64,000 bases of DNA, from contig CASGDR010000008.1 of the NCBI GenBank assembly GCA_949300345.1, positions 62,001 through 126,000 on the forward strand. Direction: 5' to 3'. The position numbers and the translations under genes were made by a program. Source of the DNA: an uncultured bacterium. Its GTDB lineage: Bacteria > Bacillota_I > Bacilli_A > RFN20 > CAG-826. The notes beneath the pieces are model-generated. The model was not told the origin of the DNA. It saw nothing but the letters and a program-made list of their open reading frames with translations, and did no database searches. Below are positions 38,711 to 47,898 of this stretch, piece after piece (the stretch's first letter is position 1; each line of letters opens with the position of its first letter).

Positions 38711-39919
38711 TTACCCTTTTCGCTCTTTGTCACTAGAAACGTCCGAGGGGCTCTGAGAATCGTCGGGTTTACCTTTTCCAATCGCGGCACGTAGTTGCGT
38801 GCTGCTAGTTTGGACCGTGTACGGGAGATATATCACTTTGCCCCCGCGTTCACCCAGAAATTTCTCATACCTTGCAAACCTCTCCGTTCCTTTGTAGTCG
38901 GATCCCACGAATAGGTAGTCGAAGCGAATATCATCCCAAGCGTCGGTATCTTCGTTGGTGCACACAATGACGTCATCCACATATCTGATTCCCCTAAGGA
39001 TTTCCATTCTTTCATCCAAGGGAATAAACACTTCCTTGCCTTTATGGCTACCGTCGGGGTGAACGCCTACGACCAGCACATCACAATGCTTCTTGGCATT
39101 GCGCAACAAATTGAGATGGCCGATGTGGAACAAATCGAAAGTACCTGTCAAATATCCGACTTTTATTTTTGGCTTGTTCTGCAGATGGGAGCCCTTGAGT
39201 TTGTATCCAAGACTTGATTTGCCAAAACCTATGGGGTCTTGGTTATACGAAGCGAGAACCCCTTTGTAGGTCTGCTCCCAATTCGGGGTATAAAATTCGT
39301 CCCTATTTTCCATATGCAGGAGCATCTCTTCTGCAATCGCCCGAATCTCTTCCTTCTGTTCCTTGGAAGGCTCATCGACATCGTGGAACGCCGTTCCGGG
39401 GATTTTGCCTGGAGCCACATCAAGAATCCTATTCTTTGTGTCTTTGGCAGACAGTTCGGCATTGGCCGCTTCTATGAACTTGGCCAAAGCGGCTTTTGAT
39501 GCTGAGTAGACGGCATAAAGCGGGGAAGAAATAAATCCGGCGATGCTTGTTACAACGGCACAATGGAATGTTTCTGTGCTGGCAATCTTAGGATAATAAT
39601 GAGCCAAGATCTGAATGATGGACTCAGAGTTCACCTTTAGGGTTTTGGAAATCTCGGCACTAGCAAAGGTTTCCAACCAGCAAAGCCTGCCGATGCCCGC
39701 GGTAATGACCAACGTGTCGATATCCAATCCCAATAGTTCCTTGTATGACTGGGTTAAGTCTTCCTGGATAAACGTGGCATTCGAATCGCCATCGATTATT
39801 TGCGGTTTGGAATAATCAGATACATATATGTGTTTTGCGGGGTATTTCTTTCGAATTGCCCGATAAAGCTCGCTACCGAGTCCCCCGCAACCAACCAAAA
39901 GAACGCTTCTGTGTTTCAT
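38711..39919 (-). CDS. Fusion of short-chain dehydrogenase and TagD-type cytidylyltransferase
   Basis: A 402-residue two-domain protein. Residues 1-235 are an SDR: nucleotide-binding VGCGGLGSEL (9-18), active-site Ser125 in VVTSIAG and YSASK (Tyr138, Lys142). Residues 252-385 are a glycerol-3-phosphate cytidylyltransferase-like domain: LTGTFDLFHIGH (258-268, HxGH), RYVDDVI and TVQTSSTQLR. Bacterial Bcs1/Acs1 proteins join an SDR to an IspD-type cytidylyltransferase to make CDP-ribitol; here the cytidylyltransferase is of a different superfamily and the domain order is reversed. Probable role: reduce a ketose phosphate and activate the alditol phosphate with CTP. A TAAAAT ends 6 nt before the ATG. 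Confidence 0.82.
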   Translation of the reverse strand: MKHRSVLLVGCGGLGSELYRAIRKKYPAKHIYVSDYSKPQIIDGDSNATFIQEDLTQSYKELLGLDIDTLVITAGIGRLCWLETFASAEISKTLKVNSESIIQILAHYYPKIASTETFHCAVVTSIAGFISSPLYAVYSASKAALAKFIEAANAELSAKDTKNRILDVAPGKIPGTAFHDVDEPSKEQKEEIRAIAEEMLLHMENRDEFYTPNWEQTYKGVLASYNQDPIGFGKSSLGYKLKGSHLQNKPKIKVGYLTGTFDLFHIGHLNLLRNAKKHCDVLVVGVHPDGSHKGKEVFIPLDERMEILRGIRYVDDVIVCTNEDTDAWDDIRFDYLFVGSDYKGTERFARYEKFLGERGGKVIYLPYTVQTSSTQLRAAIGKGKPDDSQSPSDVSSDKERKG

Positions 39920-39996: not shown

Positions 39997-40281
39997 ATGA
40001 ACATGGATACTGCGATCATTTTGGCTGGGGAGTTGGGAGTCGGATGCAACAGAACATCCTAAGATAAGTTCTTACCTTCAAAGGCAATCCCATTCTTGTC
40101 TATATCCTTGAAGCCTTTCAAAAACACCCTAACGTCGAGAGCAAAGTTCTGAAGGTTGGCAGGAGCCGCGGCCCTTGGTTTAGGCATCCTCACCATCGAG
40201 TTGGGAGGAACGACATATTTCTCTTTGGGAACTGAAAAGAACATCAAAGCGTATGAAGACATCTTGTGTTATGTAAACTCG
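39997..40281 (+). pseudogene. Remnant of an IspD/TarI-type cytidylyltransferase
   Basis: The plus strand starts MNMDTAIILAG, then one base is missing and the next frame gives GVGSRMQQNI, a stop, and LTFKGNPILVYILEAFQKHP. This is the N-terminus of IspD-family cytidylyltransferases (AIILAGGxGxRM...PKQFL...KPIL...). A third frame gives TTYFSLGTEKNIKAYEDIL, the end of the family (xxEKNIKITTxEDI). The middle 400 or so bases are gone. The order, spacing and direction fit a collapsed gene of about 235 codons, divergent from the SDR-cytidylyltransferase gene. TarI (CDP-ribitol) is more likely than IspD itself because of this context. Confidence 0.75.
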
Positions 40282-40418: not shown

Positions 40419-41573
40419 CTAATGGTCCTGAGACAACTGGTTATAAATCGAAACAAGCCGTTGGCCCATAATCGACCATTGGAATTCGTCTTGGAAAAGA
40501 TTTATGAGTTCTTGGCTAAAGCCATCGTTTGATGTAAATGATTTGACTAGGGTCTCCACGCCTTGCCCAAAGGATTCTTCGGTCGGATCTATGAGAACGC
40601 CCATATTGTGTTCTTGGAAATACAAATCGGAACCGGTGTTTCGAACCATAATGAGTTTTTTGCCCAAAGACATCGCTTCATAAAACTTGTTGGAAGAAAC
40701 ATAGCGGTGGTTTTGGATGGAAGGATCGTATAAAGCGACGAAAGCAAAACAATCCTTTTCCAATGAAAGAACCGAATTGTAATCCAACTTCCCATAAAAA
40801 GTTATGTTGTCGGATTTTTTGGCATATTCTTCTGCCAAGGCTGCAAGGGGCCCGACTCCTCCGATATGAAGCTCGACCGAATCATTTTTGGCAAAATAAT
40901 CCAAAACCATCGGCAGCAACCTTTCCTCACAAAGATTTCCGACATATACGAACCTGGGACGGTTCTTTGTATTCTTCAAAACACGCCGGTAGTCAAAGGC
41001 ATCGGAAAGCGGGGCGTTGTTGATGATTGCGATTTGTTTGGGATGGCACATCGATATCTGTTTCCGCCTTCCTTCATCGCAAATGATCGTAACTGCGCTG
41101 GCTTTGGTAACCTTCTTCTCCATCGACACAAAGAGCTTCCTCAAGAGAGTATTGGTTTTTCTCAGATCGGGAAAGAAATCAAAAATGTCGTAAACAAACG
41201 GTATTTTTTTCCTTTTTAGGATTTTGAATACCGGGTAGGCGCCGGGGAGGTCCACCAAGTGGGCAAAGTCAAACCGGTTCGAATTAGATTTGATCCATTT
41301 TTTCAAATTTTTAAAGAAGGACAAAATCGGCCTGGCGTTTTTTCTAGGGCCGGCACCCCACGGACCATAAACATTGATGAGGATCCGATTGACGTTTAGG
41401 CCATATACCGGGAATTCGTCTTCCGTGATGATCGGAGAACCTTTTTCCGGGGTTCGGTTCCATCCCAAAAAAAGGACATTGTATTGCCGGGAGCTCAGAA
41501 GAGAGTAAATTTCCTTCTGCGCCCTTGGATCGAACGATAAGTCATTGGTTCTTACATACAAGATGGTCTTCAT
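40419..41573 (-). CDS. Glycosyltransferase family 4
   Basis: A 384-residue GT-B enzyme. It starts with MKTILYVRTNDLSFDPRAQKEI, has a donor-binding C-terminal half with RPRFVYVGNLCEERLLPMVL, HIGGVGPLAALAEEYAK and the E(x)7E-type segment KFYEAMSLGKKLIM. It transfers a nucleotide-activated sugar to a lipid-linked glycan at the inner face of the membrane. The order next to mnaA suggests that UDP-ManNAc or UDP-GlcNAc could be the donor, but that is inference. Good Shine-Dalgarno GGAGGGG. Last gene of the leftward rhamnose/mnaA set. Confidence 0.85.
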   Translation of the reverse strand: MKTILYVRTNDLSFDPRAQKEIYSLLSSRQYNVLFLGWNRTPEKGSPIITEDEFPVYGLNVNRILINVYGPWGAGPRKNARPILSFFKNLKKWIKSNSNRFDFAHLVDLPGAYPVFKILKRKKIPFVYDIFDFFPDLRKTNTLLRKLFVSMEKKVTKASAVTIICDEGRRKQISMCHPKQIAIINNAPLSDAFDYRRVLKNTKNRPRFVYVGNLCEERLLPMVLDYFAKNDSVELHIGGVGPLAALAEEYAKKSDNITFYGKLDYNSVLSLEKDCFAFVALYDPSIQNHRYVSSNKFYEAMSLGKKLIMVRNTGSDLYFQEHNMGVLIDPTEESFGQGVETLVKSFTSNDGFSQELINLFQDEFQWSIMGQRLVSIYNQLSQDH

Positions 41574-41629: not shown

Positions 41630-42721
41630 TTAGCCAACCAATACATCGGCTATCCTGCGTGAGGCAAAACCATCGCCATATGGATTGCTGGCATTGCTCA
41701 TCTTCGCATAGGCCTTCTTATCTTCCAGCAGGGTTTTGAATTCCCTATATATGGTCTCTTCTTGGGTTCCAACCAACTTCAGGGTACCGGCAGAAATCCC
41801 TTCGGGTCGTTCTGTCGTATCCCTCATTACCAAGACGGGTTTGCCCAAAGAAGGCGCCTCCTCTTGAATGCCTCCGGAATCCGTAAGAATCAAATAGCTC
41901 CTGGCCATGAAGTTATGGAAATCCAAAACATCCAAGGGATCGATTAGATGGATTCGATCGTCATCCCCAAAAATCTCGCGGGCCGTTTGGCGAACGACAG
42001 GATTCAGATGGATAGGATAGATCGCCTTGACATCCGGGTGCTCATCCAAGCAGCGTCGGATGGCCCTAAACATATTTTCCATTGGCTTTCCTAGGTTTTC
42101 CCTACGATGGGCCGTTATCAGAATCAGCTTGTTGCCGGAGGCCCATTCCAACTCAGGATTCGAATAATCTTCCCTAACCGTGGTTTTCAAGGCATCGATG
42201 GCAGTGTTTCCGGTAACGAAAATCGTATCGGCCAATTTCCCTTCCCTAAGCAGGTTCTGTTTCGCAAGTTCGGTTGGGGCGAAATTGAATTTGCTGATGA
42301 TGCTGACCGCTTGGCGGTTAAATTCCTCGGGATAAGGCGAATAAATGTTGTATGTTCTTAGACCGGCTTCGACATGCCCGACCGGAATTTGCTTATAAAA
42401 GCACGCAAGGGCGGTAACGAATGTAGTAGACGTGTCTCCGTGGACAAGCACGACGTCGGGAGAGACTTCTTCCAGTACCGATTTTATTTTTTCAAGAATG
42501 CTCGTCGTAATGTCGAACAAGGACTGCTTTTCCTTCATGATCGAGAGATCGAAATCCGGGGAAACAGAAAAAGCATCGAGTACTTGGTCGAGCATCTGGC
42601 GATGCTGGCCGGTGACGCAAACTATGGTCTTGATCGAATCCCTGGTTTTCAATTCATTCACCAGAGGACACATCTTGATTGCCTCTGGCCTTGTTCCGAA
42701 CACAAGCATTACTTTCTTCAT
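41630..42721 (-). CDS. mnaA: UDP-N-acetylglucosamine 2-epimerase (non-hydrolysing)
   Basis: Interconverts UDP-GlcNAc and UDP-ManNAc. The 363-residue protein has GTRPEAIKMCPLV at the start, HVEAGLRTYNIYSPYPEEFNR (the allosteric/active-site block), TAHRRENLG and LTDSGGIQEEAPSLGKP, all typical of WecB/MnaA. It lies in the polysaccharide region between a GT4 and licD genes; UDP-ManNAc is a precursor of teichoic-acid linkage units as well as capsule. A distinct CapG-type epimerase occurs at 53.2-54.3 kb, so this is not a duplicate of the same activity. Confidence 0.93.
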   Translation of the reverse strand: MKKVMLVFGTRPEAIKMCPLVNELKTRDSIKTIVCVTGQHRQMLDQVLDAFSVSPDFDLSIMKEKQSLFDITTSILEKIKSVLEEVSPDVVLVHGDTSTTFVTALACFYKQIPVGHVEAGLRTYNIYSPYPEEFNRQAVSIISKFNFAPTELAKQNLLREGKLADTIFVTGNTAIDALKTTVREDYSNPELEWASGNKLILITAHRRENLGKPMENMFRAIRRCLDEHPDVKAIYPIHLNPVVRQTAREIFGDDDRIHLIDPLDVLDFHNFMARSYLILTDSGGIQEEAPSLGKPVLVMRDTTERPEGISAGTLKLVGTQEETIYREFKTLLEDKKAYAKMSNASNPYGDGFASRRIADVLVG

Positions 42722-42791: not shown

Positions 42792-43607
42792 TCATTTCCG
42801 ATTATCGGAAACCCTTTCATAGAAGTGGTGGCCGACGCGTTGCTCTGGTGGGGGCAACTCCATATAATTCCCGTACTCCGTGGTAAGAATGTAATCATAG
42901 TTGGCAGGAACATTGCAGAAAGTTCCGCTGAAGGGTTTTCTCAGCAATTTTTGGAAAGGGTCTTCGTGAAAAACCATGGGCCGCGGATAGACATAGATAT
43001 CCAGCCAATAATTGCCCCTCCCTTTCAATGCCGTGCTCTCGATTTTATTCAGCTTGTGTTCGATCAAGCTACCTGGAATCATTTTGGAAACAATGGACCG
43101 AACAAAGGGCAGGAATCCCTTTTTGAACAATGGATTATTGATTTTCAGATAGTGCTTCTGCTTTATGGAAAGCCAACGCAAGGCTTTGCGGTTAGTGGCA
43201 ATTGCCGTTTTTTCGTCATTGAAGGGATAGATCGGATAAATGTCTATATAGATGCAATGCGGAACCGATAGTTCTTTATCCCAAGGCAGAATCGCTTCGG
43301 TGCCTTTCATCATCAGCTGCGCATGCGGAATCGGTGCGTTTTTGTAAAATGACCGATGAAGCAACTCCATTTCCGGTGGCAGATGCGAGGAACAATAAGA
43401 CAAAAAAGCCTCATAATCCTTGCTAGGCATCATGACATCCAAATCATCGTCCCATGGGATGAAGCCTTCGTGTCTGATCGCTCCAAGGAGCGTTCCATAA
43501 TTCATTGAATAGGAAAAATTATTTTCCAAGCAAACTTTGTCGAAATAAGCAAACAGCTCAAGTTGAACGTTTCTTAGAATGTTTTTGATTTTGTTTTCGT
43601 CGCACAT
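42792..43607 (-). CDS. LicD-family phosphotransferase
   Basis: A 271-residue protein of the LicD/nucleotidyltransferase-like superfamily. The family core is YSMNYGTLLGAIRHEGFIPWDDDLDVMM, where the DDDLD metal-binding acidic cluster is intact. LicD proteins transfer phosphocholine or related phospho-ligands from CDP-activated donors onto glycans; the eukaryotic relatives FKTN and FKRP transfer ribitol-phosphate from CDP-ribitol. The start at ATG 43607 has TTGGAGAA 6 nt upstream. The nearby SDR-cytidylyltransferase fusion is a candidate donor source. Confidence 0.88.
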   Translation of the reverse strand: MCDENKIKNILRNVQLELFAYFDKVCLENNFSYSMNYGTLLGAIRHEGFIPWDDDLDVMMPSKDYEAFLSYCSSHLPPEMELLHRSFYKNAPIPHAQLMMKGTEAILPWDKELSVPHCIYIDIYPIYPFNDEKTAIATNRKALRWLSIKQKHYLKINNPLFKKGFLPFVRSIVSKMIPGSLIEHKLNKIESTALKGRGNYWLDIYVYPRPMVFHEDPFQKLLRKPFSGTFCNVPANYDYILTTEYGNYMELPPPEQRVGHHFYERVSDNRK

Positions 43608-43649
43608 ATCGGTTCTCCAAATAACTGGGTCTAAGTAGAAAGGCCCCAA

Positions 43650-44507
43650 TCAATCAGTGGCTTCCCTTTCTTGGAGATAGCGGGCCAGGGCGTCATCCCA
43701 ATCAGGCATTTTCGTGAACCCGCTGCGCTCCATCTTGTCCTTTGACAATCTTGAATTCAAAGGGCGTTTGGCGGCTGTGACATAATCGGAGGTAGGAATG
43801 TCTTTGACCACGACATCCATATCTGACAATTCAAAAATCTTTCTGGCAAATCCGGCCCAAGAGACAAAACCATTGTTGGTACAGTGATATATCCCGTATT
43901 TATTCGAATGCACCAGTTCGATCAAAAACAAGGCAAGGTCATGCGCGAATGTCGGCGATCCAATCTGATCGGACACTACGGAAATTTCGGATTTGGAAGC
44001 GCCGAGCCTAAGCATCGTTTCGATGAAATTGTGCCCGCCGATTCCAAAAACCCAAGAAGTCCTAACAATGAACGACTTGCTGTGTTGCAATGCCAAATGC
44101 TCTGCCACTGCTTTCGAATAGCCATACTGACCCAAAGGATTCACAGGATCGGATTCAAGATACAAGCCGTTTTTCCTACCGTCGAAAACATAATCTGTGG
44201 AAACGAGAACGAAGGGAGTTTCAGGCGTTATCGAGGACAAAAGATTCTTGGTTGCAAGAACATTGGCTGCATAGCAGATTTGGGGTTCGGATTCGGCCTT
44301 ATCGACCTGGGTATAAGCGGCGCAATGAATCACACAATCGAATTTGGTTTTGGAAAACAAAGCGGCAACAGCCCCCTCATCGGTCAAGTCCAAATCATTT
44401 ATATCGGTGCCAATCACATTGTATGAAGGATATTTTTCCTTCAGAAGCCGGCACAGGACCGAACCTAATTGCCCTTTGACACCGGTAACCAAAATGTTTT
44501 TATTCAT
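43650..44507 (-). CDS. rfbD: dTDP-4-dehydrorhamnose reductase
   Basis: Last step of dTDP-L-rhamnose synthesis. The 285-residue SDR has VTGVKGQLGSVL, HCAAYTQVDKAES, LVSTDYVFDG and the active-site YGYSKAVAEH (YxxxK). It overlaps rfbC by 8 nt, and the licD gene begins 43 nt after its stop. The four rfb genes are together, with a glycosyltransferase between B and C. Confidence 0.95.
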   Translation of the reverse strand: MNKNILVTGVKGQLGSVLCRLLKEKYPSYNVIGTDINDLDLTDEGAVAALFSKTKFDCVIHCAAYTQVDKAESEPQICYAANVLATKNLLSSITPETPFVLVSTDYVFDGRKNGLYLESDPVNPLGQYGYSKAVAEHLALQHSKSFIVRTSWVFGIGGHNFIETMLRLGASKSEISVVSDQIGSPTFAHDLALFLIELVHSNKYGIYHCTNNGFVSWAGFARKIFELSDMDVVVKDIPTSDYVTAAKRPLNSRLSKDKMERSGFTKMPDWDDALARYLQEREATD

Positions 44508-45048
44508 ACTTAAAATCTATGTCGCTGTCTTTATAAAGAGGAGCTTGGCGGTCCTTGTCTGAAAGGTTGTGGGGCAATTCCCCCCAATCGACTCCAAAGA
44601 TAGGATCGTCAAACCTAATGCTCCTGTCCGACTCCTTGTTGTAATACTCATCCACCTTATATTGGACCATGCAATCGTCAACCAATGTAACAAAGCCGTG
44701 CAAACAGCCTTTCGGAATCAATACCTGGTGGAAATTGGATTCTGACAATTCAAAGGTCAGGTGCTTGAGGTAGGTCGGGGAAGATTTCCTGACGTCAACC
44801 ACCACATCAAGGATCGCTCCTTTGGTGCATCTGATCAATTTGAGCTGAGCATGCGGATTCTTTTGGCAGTGCAGGCCGCGGATCGTACCCTTTTGGACAG
44901 TAAATGACTGATTGTCTTGGACAAACTGGATTTCCTTTAGCGGTTCCCAATGCTTGCTGTAGCTTTCGAAAAAGAAGCCCCTGCCGTCTTTAAATACATC
45001 CGGCTTTATCAGCCAGCATCCAGGGATAGTGGTTTCCTTGCATTCCAT
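44500..45048 (-). CDS. rfbC: dTDP-4-dehydrorhamnose 3,5-epimerase
   Basis: Cupin-fold epimerase of 182 residues, with GRGFFFESYSK, RGLHCQKNPHAQLKLIRCTKG (catalytic His) and PKGCLHGFVTL. The chosen ATG (45048) gives MECKETTIPG; a TTG four codons upstream is part of the Shine-Dalgarno TTGGAG. It provides the substrate for RfbD. Confidence 0.95.
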   Translation of the reverse strand: MECKETTIPGCWLIKPDVFKDGRGFFFESYSKHWEPLKEIQFVQDNQSFTVQKGTIRGLHCQKNPHAQLKLIRCTKGAILDVVVDVRKSSPTYLKHLTFELSESNFHQVLIPKGCLHGFVTLVDDCMVQYKVDEYYNKESDRSIRFDDPIFGVDWGELPHNLSDKDRQAPLYKDSDIDFKYE

Positions 45049-45080
45049 ATGATTCTCCAAAAGGCATTAAGCCATCTTGG

Positions 45081-45980
45081 TTATTTTAAGTCAAAGAAGC
45101 ATTCTCTAACAGAAGACTTGAAAGAGAAAAAATAACCGTTCTTGAATAAAAACAGCGGTATGCCTTTAGCCAGCGAGTGATTCTTTATATTTTCCAAACG
45201 CGATTGGACGAATTTCCTATATTTATCCAGAAGCGCATAATCCAAACGGCTTGAAAGGGTTTCGTGAGCTCTGATTGCGTCAAGGCAACAGAGGATGTCT
45301 TCGCAATCCTCAACCTTCTTTTCATATAGAGGCTTTCCGTGCCTGGAAGATGCGCTGCTGTCGTATACCCGATGAAATACAAGATCATCGGAGAGCCAAA
45401 ATAGGGAATTGGTCAGCAAGGCCGCAAGCCAAAAATATAGATCGTGGGGTACATTATTGGCATTTATCAAACCGATGCTTTCTTTGCGGATGGCCATCAC
45501 GCATCCGGGAAAACGAATGGTGTAATTCCGCCTTTTTCTAGGACTGATTTTGTTCAGAAGTTGTCCCTTTTGGGAAAAAACAGGAGACCCACCGGTGGAA
45601 AAATTGCAACATAAAACCGAGATTTCCGGATTCTCGTCTAAGGCGCATGCCATCTTCTCAATTTTTGTCTTTTCCCACACATCATCCTGATCGGAAAGGA
45701 AGACATACTTCGCAGATGATTTGTTGAATGAGTCAATGAAGTTGTTTTTCCAGCCTAAATTCCGCTTGTTCTTTTCTATCTGAAAATCAGAAAATCCTTT
45801 GGACAAAAGGAAGTCCGAGGCATCGGAAATAGTATTGTCGGTAGAACAATCGTCCCTAATAAAGAGGGAGTCCGGCTTTCTTGTCTGGGACAAAATGGAC
45901 TCTAATTGGCTTTTGATGTATTCAGATCCATTAAAGGTGCAAAGAATAACCTGGGTGGTTATTTTTTCATCGTTTTCCAT
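45081..45980 (-). CDS. Glycosyltransferase family 2 (rhamnosyltransferase-type)
   Basis: A 299-residue GT-A enzyme. VILCTFNGSEYIKSQLESILSQT at the N-terminus, RDDCSTDNT and the DXD-like SDQDDVWEKTKIEKM are as in rhamnan/capsule rhamnosyltransferases of Firmicutes (RgpF/WbbL-like). Its position inside the rfb genes (14-nt overlap with rfbB) supports dTDP-rhamnose as donor. The end lies 32 nt before rfbC. Confidence 0.85.
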   Translation of the reverse strand: MENDEKITTQVILCTFNGSEYIKSQLESILSQTRKPDSLFIRDDCSTDNTISDASDFLLSKGFSDFQIEKNKRNLGWKNNFIDSFNKSSAKYVFLSDQDDVWEKTKIEKMACALDENPEISVLCCNFSTGGSPVFSQKGQLLNKISPRKRRNYTIRFPGCVMAIRKESIGLINANNVPHDLYFWLAALLTNSLFWLSDDLVFHRVYDSSASSRHGKPLYEKKVEDCEDILCCLDAIRAHETLSSRLDYALLDKYRKFVQSRLENIKNHSLAKGIPLFLFKNGYFFSFKSSVRECFFDLK

Positions 45981-46983
45981 AATGATCTTGGAGATAGTTC
46001 AAATATTCCCCAGTTTCAACCGCGCGAAGCCATTCCTTGTTATCGATATTCCAGCGGATCGTTTTTTCGATACCCTTCTCAAACGGGAATTCCGGCACCC
46101 AGCCCAATTGGCGGATTTTCGAAGCATCGATGGCATACCGCAAATCATGTCCTGGCCTATCTTTGACAAAAGAAATCAAATCTTCGCCTTTCCCCAAGGC
46201 CTTGAGAATCGTCTTAACAATATATAGGTTTGTTTTTTCGTTATTGCCTCCAACGTTATAAACATTTCCTATTTTTCCTTTTTTGATAATGAGGTCTATG
46301 GCGGAGCAATGGTCGTCAACGTAAAGCCAGTCTCTGACGTTTTGACCATTCCCATAGACGGGAAGGGGCTTGTCTTCCGTTGCCATCTTTATCATGAGGG
46401 GGATTAGTTTCTCGGGAAATTGATACGGGCCATAGTTGTTGGAACAACGGCTGATCGTTACCGGAAGGCCATAGGTTCTGTAATAGGATAGAACCAACAT
46501 ATCGGCAGATGCCTTTGAGGCGGAATACGGACTTGAGGGTTTGATGGGATTGCTTTCGGTGAATAGGAGATCGGGCCTATCGAGCGGCAAGTCGCCATAA
46601 ACCTCATCCGTCGACACTTGATGGAACCTGATGCCTCCGAAATGGCGGCAGGCCTCAAGGAGGACGAAAGTTCCAAAAATATTCGATCTTACAAAGTCTT
46701 CGGGAAAGTCAACGCTCCTGTCGACATGGGTCTCGGCAGCGAAATTGATAACACAATCGAATTTTTCGTTTTCAAATAGCTTAAAAATGAAATCTTTGTC
46801 TGCGATGTCCCCTTTGACAAAGGAAAAATGAGGATCCCCTTCCAATCCTTTTAAAGTCAGCAAATTGCCGGCATAGGTCAGCAAATCAAGGCAAACGATA
46901 TCCCAGTCAGGGTTTGCTTTCCTCATAAAATAGCAAAAATTGCTACCAATGAACCCCGCACCGCCAGTGACCAATATTTTCAT
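45967..46983 (-). CDS. rfbB: dTDP-glucose 4,6-dehydratase
   Basis: SDR enzyme of 338 residues for the second step of dTDP-L-rhamnose synthesis. VTGGAGFIGSNFCYF binds NAD; catalysis uses STDEVYGDL (Thr-Asp-Glu) and YSASKASADM (YxxxK). DRPGHDLRYAID is family-specific. It lies 27 nt after rfbA. Confidence 0.97.
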   Translation of the reverse strand: MKILVTGGAGFIGSNFCYFMRKANPDWDIVCLDLLTYAGNLLTLKGLEGDPHFSFVKGDIADKDFIFKLFENEKFDCVINFAAETHVDRSVDFPEDFVRSNIFGTFVLLEACRHFGGIRFHQVSTDEVYGDLPLDRPDLLFTESNPIKPSSPYSASKASADMLVLSYYRTYGLPVTISRCSNNYGPYQFPEKLIPLMIKMATEDKPLPVYGNGQNVRDWLYVDDHCSAIDLIIKKGKIGNVYNVGGNNEKTNLYIVKTILKALGKGEDLISFVKDRPGHDLRYAIDASKIRQLGWVPEFPFEKGIEKTIRWNIDNKEWLRAVETGEYLNYLQDHYGKR

Positions 46984-47010
46984 CTTTATTCTCCTTTTTA
47001 TGATGGTGTT

Positions 47011-47898
47011 TCAGTAAAGAATCTTATTTTCGGCAACATTCCTCAAATGCTTGCCATAAGGACTGTTGCCCATGGCTTCGGAAGCCTTGATAAGCACATC
47101 CTTTTCAATCCACCCATTGATATAGGCAATTTCTTCCAAACAGCTGATCTGTATTCCTTGCCTTTGTTGGAGCATCGCTACAAATTCCCCTGCCTTGAGC
47201 AATGAATCGTGGGTACCGGTATCCAACCAGGTAAAGCCCCTGCCCATTAAGTCGACGTCTAGGTCGCCGGCCTCAAGATACATCTGGTTTATGGAGGTGA
47301 TTTCCAATTCGCCGCGGGCGGAAGGCTTGACTGATTTCGCAAAGGAAACGACCCGGTTGTCGTAAAAATACAAACCCGTGGCGGCATAATTGCTTTTGGG
47401 CTTTTTGGGCTTTTCCTCAATCGATAGGACCTTCCCGTTTTTGCCTATTTCGATAATTCCGAAATTTTCGGGATCCGAAACGAAATATCCGAAGATGGTA
47501 GCGCGATTATGAACTTCGGCATTTGTTTTTGCCGATTGAAGCTTCTTCCTTATCCCAGACCCATAGAAGATGTTGTCGCCAAGGATCAGAGCGACATTGT
47601 CTGAGCCAATGAAGGATTCCCCTATCAAAAAGGCTTCTGCCAAACCTCTTGGATATTCCTGTACCGCATAGGAGAATGTAACTCCGAATTGGGACCCGTC
47701 CTTAAGCAACTTTTGGAAGTTGGGCAAATCGTGCGGCGTGGAAATGATCAAAATATCATTGATCCCCGCCAGCATTAGGGTCGAAATCGGATAGTAAATC
47801 ATCGGTTTGTCGAAAACCGGTAGAAGCTGTTTGCTAACAGAAATGGTTAGCGGATAAAGCCTGGTTCCACTACCCCCAGCGAGAATGATTCCCTTCAT
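47011..47898 (-). CDS. rfbA: Glucose-1-phosphate thymidylyltransferase
   Basis: Forms dTDP-glucose from dTTP and glucose 1-phosphate; 295 residues with [34 protein letters not shown] and [20 protein letters not shown]. First gene of the leftward cluster rfbA-rfbB-GT2-rfbC-rfbD-licD-mnaA-GT4. A strong AAGGAGGGG and a good promoter lie upstream. Confidence 0.97.

Follow-up and report, generated by a model that had tools for sequence, protein, structure and literature searches.

Teichoic-acid-like capsules and LicD/fukutin-type transfer draw on CDP-alditols as donors, and both LicD (PF04991) and TagF/TarL-type (PF04464) transferases use CDP-linked donors. Among described enzymes that combine reduction with cytidylyl transfer, Bcs1 and Acs1 are IspD-SDR CDP-ribitol synthases, in which an IspD-type cytidylyltransferase (CT, PF01128) and a reductase of the classical SDR superfamily share one chain and which use ribulose 5-phosphate, CTP, and NADPH. 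A PF01128 CT is paired with an extended-type reductase (PF01370) in HS5.18/HS5.17 of Campylobacter HS:5 and in the pneumococcal Mnp1/Mnp2, which make CDP-6-D-glucitol and CDP-D-mannitol, respectively; in both systems, fructose 6-phosphate is cytidylylated first and reduced second (PMC10918830). The whole stretch of DNA that was analysed here (the window, 64,000 nucleotides from an uncultured bacterium) contains a gene in which a classical SDR and a CT are again joined in one chain. The order of the two halves is opposite to that of Bcs1/Acs1, and the C-terminal CT belongs to the HxGH type (PF01467) rather than to IspD; neither PF01128 nor PF01370 was matched in the fusion by Pfam. As judged from its sequence and surroundings, the protein is probably a bifunctional CDP-alditol synthase that serves a surface polysaccharide.

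The fusion is encoded by a 402-residue ORF on the minus strand (39919-38711), as read from the ORF list and the translation of the window, and the plus strand across 38711-39919 is riddled with stops. Residues 1-245 (39185-39919, minus strand) form the SDR domain, for which Pfam adh_short (PF00106) matches residues 54-176 (E 3e-15, 56.7 bits versus a cut-off of 26.6). Residues 253-380 (38780-39163, minus strand) form the CT domain, for which CTP_transf_like (PF01467) matches residues 257-378 (E 1.3e-17, 64.7 bits versus a cut-off of 21). With both Pfam domains over their cut-offs, the pairing of an N-terminal SDR with a C-terminal HxGH CT that was put forward in the first-pass annotation is borne out. 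The residues that it assigned to the two active sites are also correctly placed: Ser125 (39545-39547), Tyr138 (39506-39508), and Lys142 (39494-39496) in the SDR, and GTFDLFHIGH at residues 259-268 of the CT, with HIGH at 39116-39127. The SDR additionally contains N97, and the CT contains the motifs GSDYKGTERF (residues 339-348) and YTxxTSSTxLR (residues 367-377), which are invariant or nearly so among 81 aligned sequences. A profile score, a Gly-rich loop, and a Ser-Tyr-Lys set characteristic of classical SDRs are thus found in the first half, and a profile match over cut-off together with an HxGH motif present in all 81 sequences places the second half in the PF01467 superfamily.

In an AlphaFold2 model built from 48 relatives, both domains are well ordered (mean pLDDT 91.6, pTM 0.85) and the tail beyond approximately residue 380 is of low confidence. 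A fold search yielded generic SDRs and did not narrow the range of substrates. The structural relatives of the CT half include the CT domain of Fom1 (5x3d, E 3e-8), which would fit a Fom1-like activation of a phosphonate such as 2-hydroxyethylphosphonate, with the SDR reducing phosphonoacetaldehyde and the CT adding CMP. This chemistry is exceedingly improbable here, as the window genome lacks PEP mutase, and of 30 genomes with the fusion only 4 have one that scores over cut-off.

The SDR-then-CT architecture, which the first-pass annotation presented as a reversal of the known order, is real and is not unique to the window: when one genome of each species was scanned, the full-length fusion turned up in at least 80 species besides that of the window. 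The best 80 of 91 relatives, each with both domains in a single ORF and 42-58% identity, were kept and, with the window copy, make up the 81 sequences considered here. This order is standard for the whole family rather than peculiar to the window genome, and the presence of the same two-domain ORF at 80 further loci in other species excludes a frameshift or an assembly artefact. The fusion is carried chiefly by gut Clostridia and Bacteroidales and by a number of Bacilli (Enterococcus, Latilactobacillus, Bacillus, Streptococcus suis, and S. minor), and its range extends to Succiniclasticum, a Spirochaetales bacterium, and a Lentisphaeria bacterium. Streptococcal matches outside the fusion-bearing species were rejected as family members and are ordinary TagD instead. 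The fusion is absent from all 36 other genomes of the window's genus, and in a phylum sample of 392 genomes the full-length form occurs only in the window's own genome; this patchiness suggests horizontal transfer of capsule genes. Plasmid and phage collections yielded just CT or SDR pieces, no relative of full length, and a split pair from Gemmobacter, in which the same SDR and CT are encoded by two overlapping genes that are followed by LicD. At one locus, a 756-residue ORF joins the SDR-CT fusion to an NDP-sugar epimerase-type domain (L057:2273-4543).

Residues S125, Y138, K142, H265, G267, H268, K293, K295, and R304 are invariant in 81 of 81 sequences, as are GSDYKGTERF and R377, and position 97 is Asn in 70 sequences and Asp in 11. 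Because both active sites are maintained together throughout the set, both domains are likely to be functional. The window copy is atypical in its dinucleotide-binding loop, which reads GCGGLG versus GGSNGIG in the family and retains the three loop glycines, and this feature could be taken to mean that only one domain is active or that two unrelated reactions have been joined by chance. Such an explanation is quite improbable, since the catalytic residues of both domains are unchanged in 81 sequences from several phyla and in different phyla the two halves have remained joined or are encoded by overlapping genes. In other respects, the window copy has the features that mark the family of LicD/TagF loci: both domains lie in one ORF, both CT motifs are present, and a gene for a CDP-donor transferase lies nearby.

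That transferase gene, licD, belongs to a capsule-type array on the minus strand that reads, in order, rmlA, rmlB, GT2, rmlC, rmlD, licD, wecB, and a GT4-type gene, with the fusion at the end, beyond a gap of 499 bp. The array begins with the dTDP-rhamnose genes and a glycosyltransferase (43650-47898, assigned by Pfam except for rmlA at 47011-47898, which was assigned by reading of the sequence). LicD (42792-43649; PF04991, E 5.5e-35) is followed by the UDP-GlcNAc 2-epimerase WecB (41630-42721; TIGR00236, 516 bits, over cut-off) and by the GT4-type glycosyltransferase immediately preceding the gap (40419-41573; Glyco_trans_1_4/Glycos_transf_1). LicD therefore lies 2.9 kb upstream of the fusion and three genes away, and the proposed link between the two is one of a shared array and a lack of alternatives rather than of adjacency, with the gap setting the fusion apart. 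This LicD is the only copy in the window genome, whose single IspD sits among unrelated housekeeping genes. A genome-wide profile search found no PF04464 and no TagD over cut-off, and no other CDP-alditol synthase of a known type that could supply LicD was found in this genome. It does encode a lone choline/ethanolamine-kinase-like protein (PF01633), and none of the neighbouring ORFs listed is LicC-like; there is a slight chance that CDP-choline is the donor for this LicD.

Across the family, LicD and/or PF04464 is encoded within 5 kb of the fusion at 58 of 81 loci (LicD only at 20, PF04464 only at 27, and both at 11). The LicD of the window is additional to these 58, as it lies outside the short locus L001, and its inclusion reduces the loci at which these profiles find neither transferase within 5 kb from 23 to 22. 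Within approximately 1.5 kb, one or the other is found at 55 of 81 fusions versus 2 of 30 rmlA loci, the control genes being taken from 30 of the same fusion-bearing genomes (Fisher p 3e-9); with matched genomes, the values are 34 of 50 versus 2 of 30 (Fisher p 3e-8). Several of the 81 loci are closely related, and these counts are accordingly not of independent events. Both profiles were made from fusion neighbours and checked against Pfam representatives, and they may under-count LicD/TagF, as divergent forms occur in L025, L034, L044, L046, L050, and L059. Because LicD or TagF/TarL transferases adjoin it, the surroundings of the fusion point to a role in CDP-alditol synthesis. A neighbouring LicD is not always the partner of the fusion, since L035 and L073 encode proteins of donor systems with different head groups (a LicC-LicA-like protein and an NTP-transferase-aminotransferase protein, respectively), which the LicD of these loci may serve. 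At two loci, a single protein encoded next to the fusion combines LicD and PF04464 domains (L023:7524-10019 and L024:1540-4359), and at a third a TagF-type transferase fused to an HxGH CT directly precedes the fusion and a second TagF (L100:8807-10495).

In the proposed pathway, the N-terminal SDR would use NAD(P)H to reduce a ketose phosphate (or the CDP-ketose) at its keto group, the C-terminal HxGH domain would transfer CMP from CTP onto the phosphate to give a CDP-alditol, and a LicD-type transferase, here that at 42792-43649 and elsewhere one of the TagF/TarL type, would pass the alditol phosphate to the surface polysaccharide. We infer that both domains are active and act in sequence and that the LicD of the window performs the transfer. 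The idea of the first-pass annotation, that a CDP-alditol arises by a route without homology to Bcs1, finds good support in these LicD or TagF/TarL neighbours and in the like position of Bcs1 beside LicD in Parabacteroides. The likeliest alditol would be ribitol, formed from ribulose 5-phosphate, or another pentitol, with glycerol less likely.

The case for glycerol draws in part on the relationship of the CT to TagD. The fusion shares with TagD/TarD (1coz, TIGR01518) the HxGH fold and motif and a pair of conserved lysines (K293 and K295), and with a family profile 1coz is matched at E 1e-22. The motif RTEGISTT of TagD/TarD is replaced by PYTxGTSSTQLR in the fusion CT, which is also joined to an SDR. 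Against TIGR01518, the window CT scores 71.2 bits, less than half the curated cut-off of 165.4, and fusions in 15 genomes searched score 59.9-87.2 bits. In a CT tree, a branch with support of 100/99 separates the fusion CTs from the TagDs, and the CT of the split Gemmobacter pair clusters with the fusion CTs; the entry labelled HldE_L091 in this tree is a GpsA-TagD fusion. Because its score is far below the cut-off and its clade is separate, the CT is assigned on sequence grounds to the HxGH superfamily but not to TagD; the 'TagD-type' label given to it earlier is retained only as far as the superfamily.

A CDP-glycerol synthase, in which a glycerol phosphate formed from DHAP by the SDR would be converted to CDP-glycerol by the TagD-like domain, is compatible with this distant kinship and with the PF04464 neighbours, whose family is named for CDP-glycerol transferases. 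It is nonetheless unlikely, as a route from DHAP to CDP-glycerol is already present at four fusion-bearing loci: L082 and L099 each encode in cis an intact canonical TagD over the curated cut-off, and GpsA (glycerol-3-phosphate dehydrogenase) is fused to a canonical TagD at L076:17241-18701 and L091:967-2556. The position of the CT outside the TagD clade and the altered motif weigh against it as well. Of the substrates suggested in the first-pass annotation, DHAP thus loses ground, whereas ribulose 5-phosphate, leading to CDP-ribitol, is possible and favoured, and other ketose phosphates are open too.

IspD-type genes near the fusion bear on the choice among the remaining products. In the window, a decayed IspD-type CT remnant lies on the plus strand between the glycosyltransferase gene and the fusion (40029-40263). 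It consists of two collinear tblastn pieces, with a broken frame and an internal deletion, and is nearest to the intact IspD-type gene that adjoins the fusion in L047 (42.0 and 32.3 bits, versus 26.6 for the best of 500 shuffles). Intact IspD-type CTs also adjoin the fusion in L035, L044, and L046, and decayed ones accompany it in L073 and L093. On a Parabacteroides plasmid, an IspD-SDR protein annotated as 'bifunctional cytidylyltransferase/SDR family oxidoreductase' ends 2 bp ahead of LicD; by analogy, the fusion appears to fill elsewhere the same kind of place as this Bcs1-type enzyme. Two readings of these arrangements are open. The fusion may have displaced IspD-type enzymes of like function, which would favour ribitol, or the fusion and the IspD-type CTs may coexist because their products differ. 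If the intact IspD-type CTs make CDP-ribitol, the fusion at those four loci may make another product. In L044 (9067-9780) and L046 (3055-3714), the IspD module immediately upstream of the fusion is Bcs1-like and has no SDR half of its own, and directly upstream of the fusion in L060 (8799-9998) is a CMP-Kdo/NeuA-type CT (PF02348) fused to a HAD phosphatase.

The coexistence of the fusion with TagD and IspD-type CTs suggests a product of its own, which may be a CDP-hexitol or a CDP derivative of another pentitol or a tetritol (glucitol, mannitol, arabinitol, xylitol, erythritol, or threitol). Cytidylylation might then come first and reduction second, as is established on fructose 6-phosphate for HS5.18/HS5.17 and Mnp1/Mnp2 (PMC10918830). 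No hexitol- or tetritol-specific gene was seen among the neighbours, and the known hexitol enzymes belong to families other than those of the fusion. Taken together, these non-glycerol alternatives are a possible but rather doubtful outcome, and CDP-ribitol is tentatively favoured as the product.

No paper recognised as describing an SDR-CTP_transf_like fusion was found in the open-access literature searched, and the fusion apparently represents an uncharacterised, independently assembled family of CDP-alditol synthases. A broader scenario can be put forward with slightly less than even confidence: an HxGH CT and a classical SDR were joined independently of Bcs1, TarI/TarJ, and Mnp1/Mnp2 into an enzyme for a CDP-alditol other than CDP-glycerol, be it CDP-ribitol, for which this would be a third route, or an alditol new as a CDP donor, and IspD-type enzymes were repeatedly replaced in gut-bacterial capsule loci, leaving relics such as that in the window. 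With a synthase family so widespread among gut Clostridia and Bacteroidales and in some streptococci and enterococci, one could predict from sequence which alditol phosphates many surface polymers contain.

Several other systems combine comparable parts. An asparagine-synthase-like protein is linked or fused to an HxGH CT in several phyla (L003:400-1908, from the window's genus; L102:5995-7455; L029, 7530-9083; and L229, 1516-3008), and long ORFs on the viral contigs L170, L171, L173, and L205 appear, from their motifs, to hold a LicD-like nucleotidyltransferase fold and an HxGH CT in one chain. The asparagine-synthase-paired PF01467 CTs (L003, L102, Bacteroidales loci, and L229) are HxGH CTs of a sister type that lie next to LicD or TagF; they differ from the fusion in having no SDR, the motif GVYDxFHIGH, and another partner enzyme. 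The GpsA-TagD proteins of L076 and L091 share with the fusion an N-terminal dehydrogenase, a C-terminal HxGH CT, and capsule-type loci, but their reductase is a glycerol-3-phosphate dehydrogenase, their CT is a true TagD, and their expected product is CDP-glycerol. HS5.18/HS5.17 and Mnp1/Mnp2 likewise use a CT and an SDR-superfamily reductase to make a CDP-alditol for capsule, as separate proteins rather than in one chain. A particular kinship of the fusion SDR with Bcs1 was rejected: in blastp, the Bcs1 SDR domains score 30-43 bits versus 44-71 bits for generic SDRs, and the fusion SDR is no closer to them than generic SDRs are. Because its CT is not a TagD, its SDR differs from the Bcs1 type, and its families differ from those of the HS:5 and Mnp enzymes, the fusion would be another independently built combination of reduction and cytidylyl transfer, and another independent invention of a fused reductase and cytidylyltransferase.
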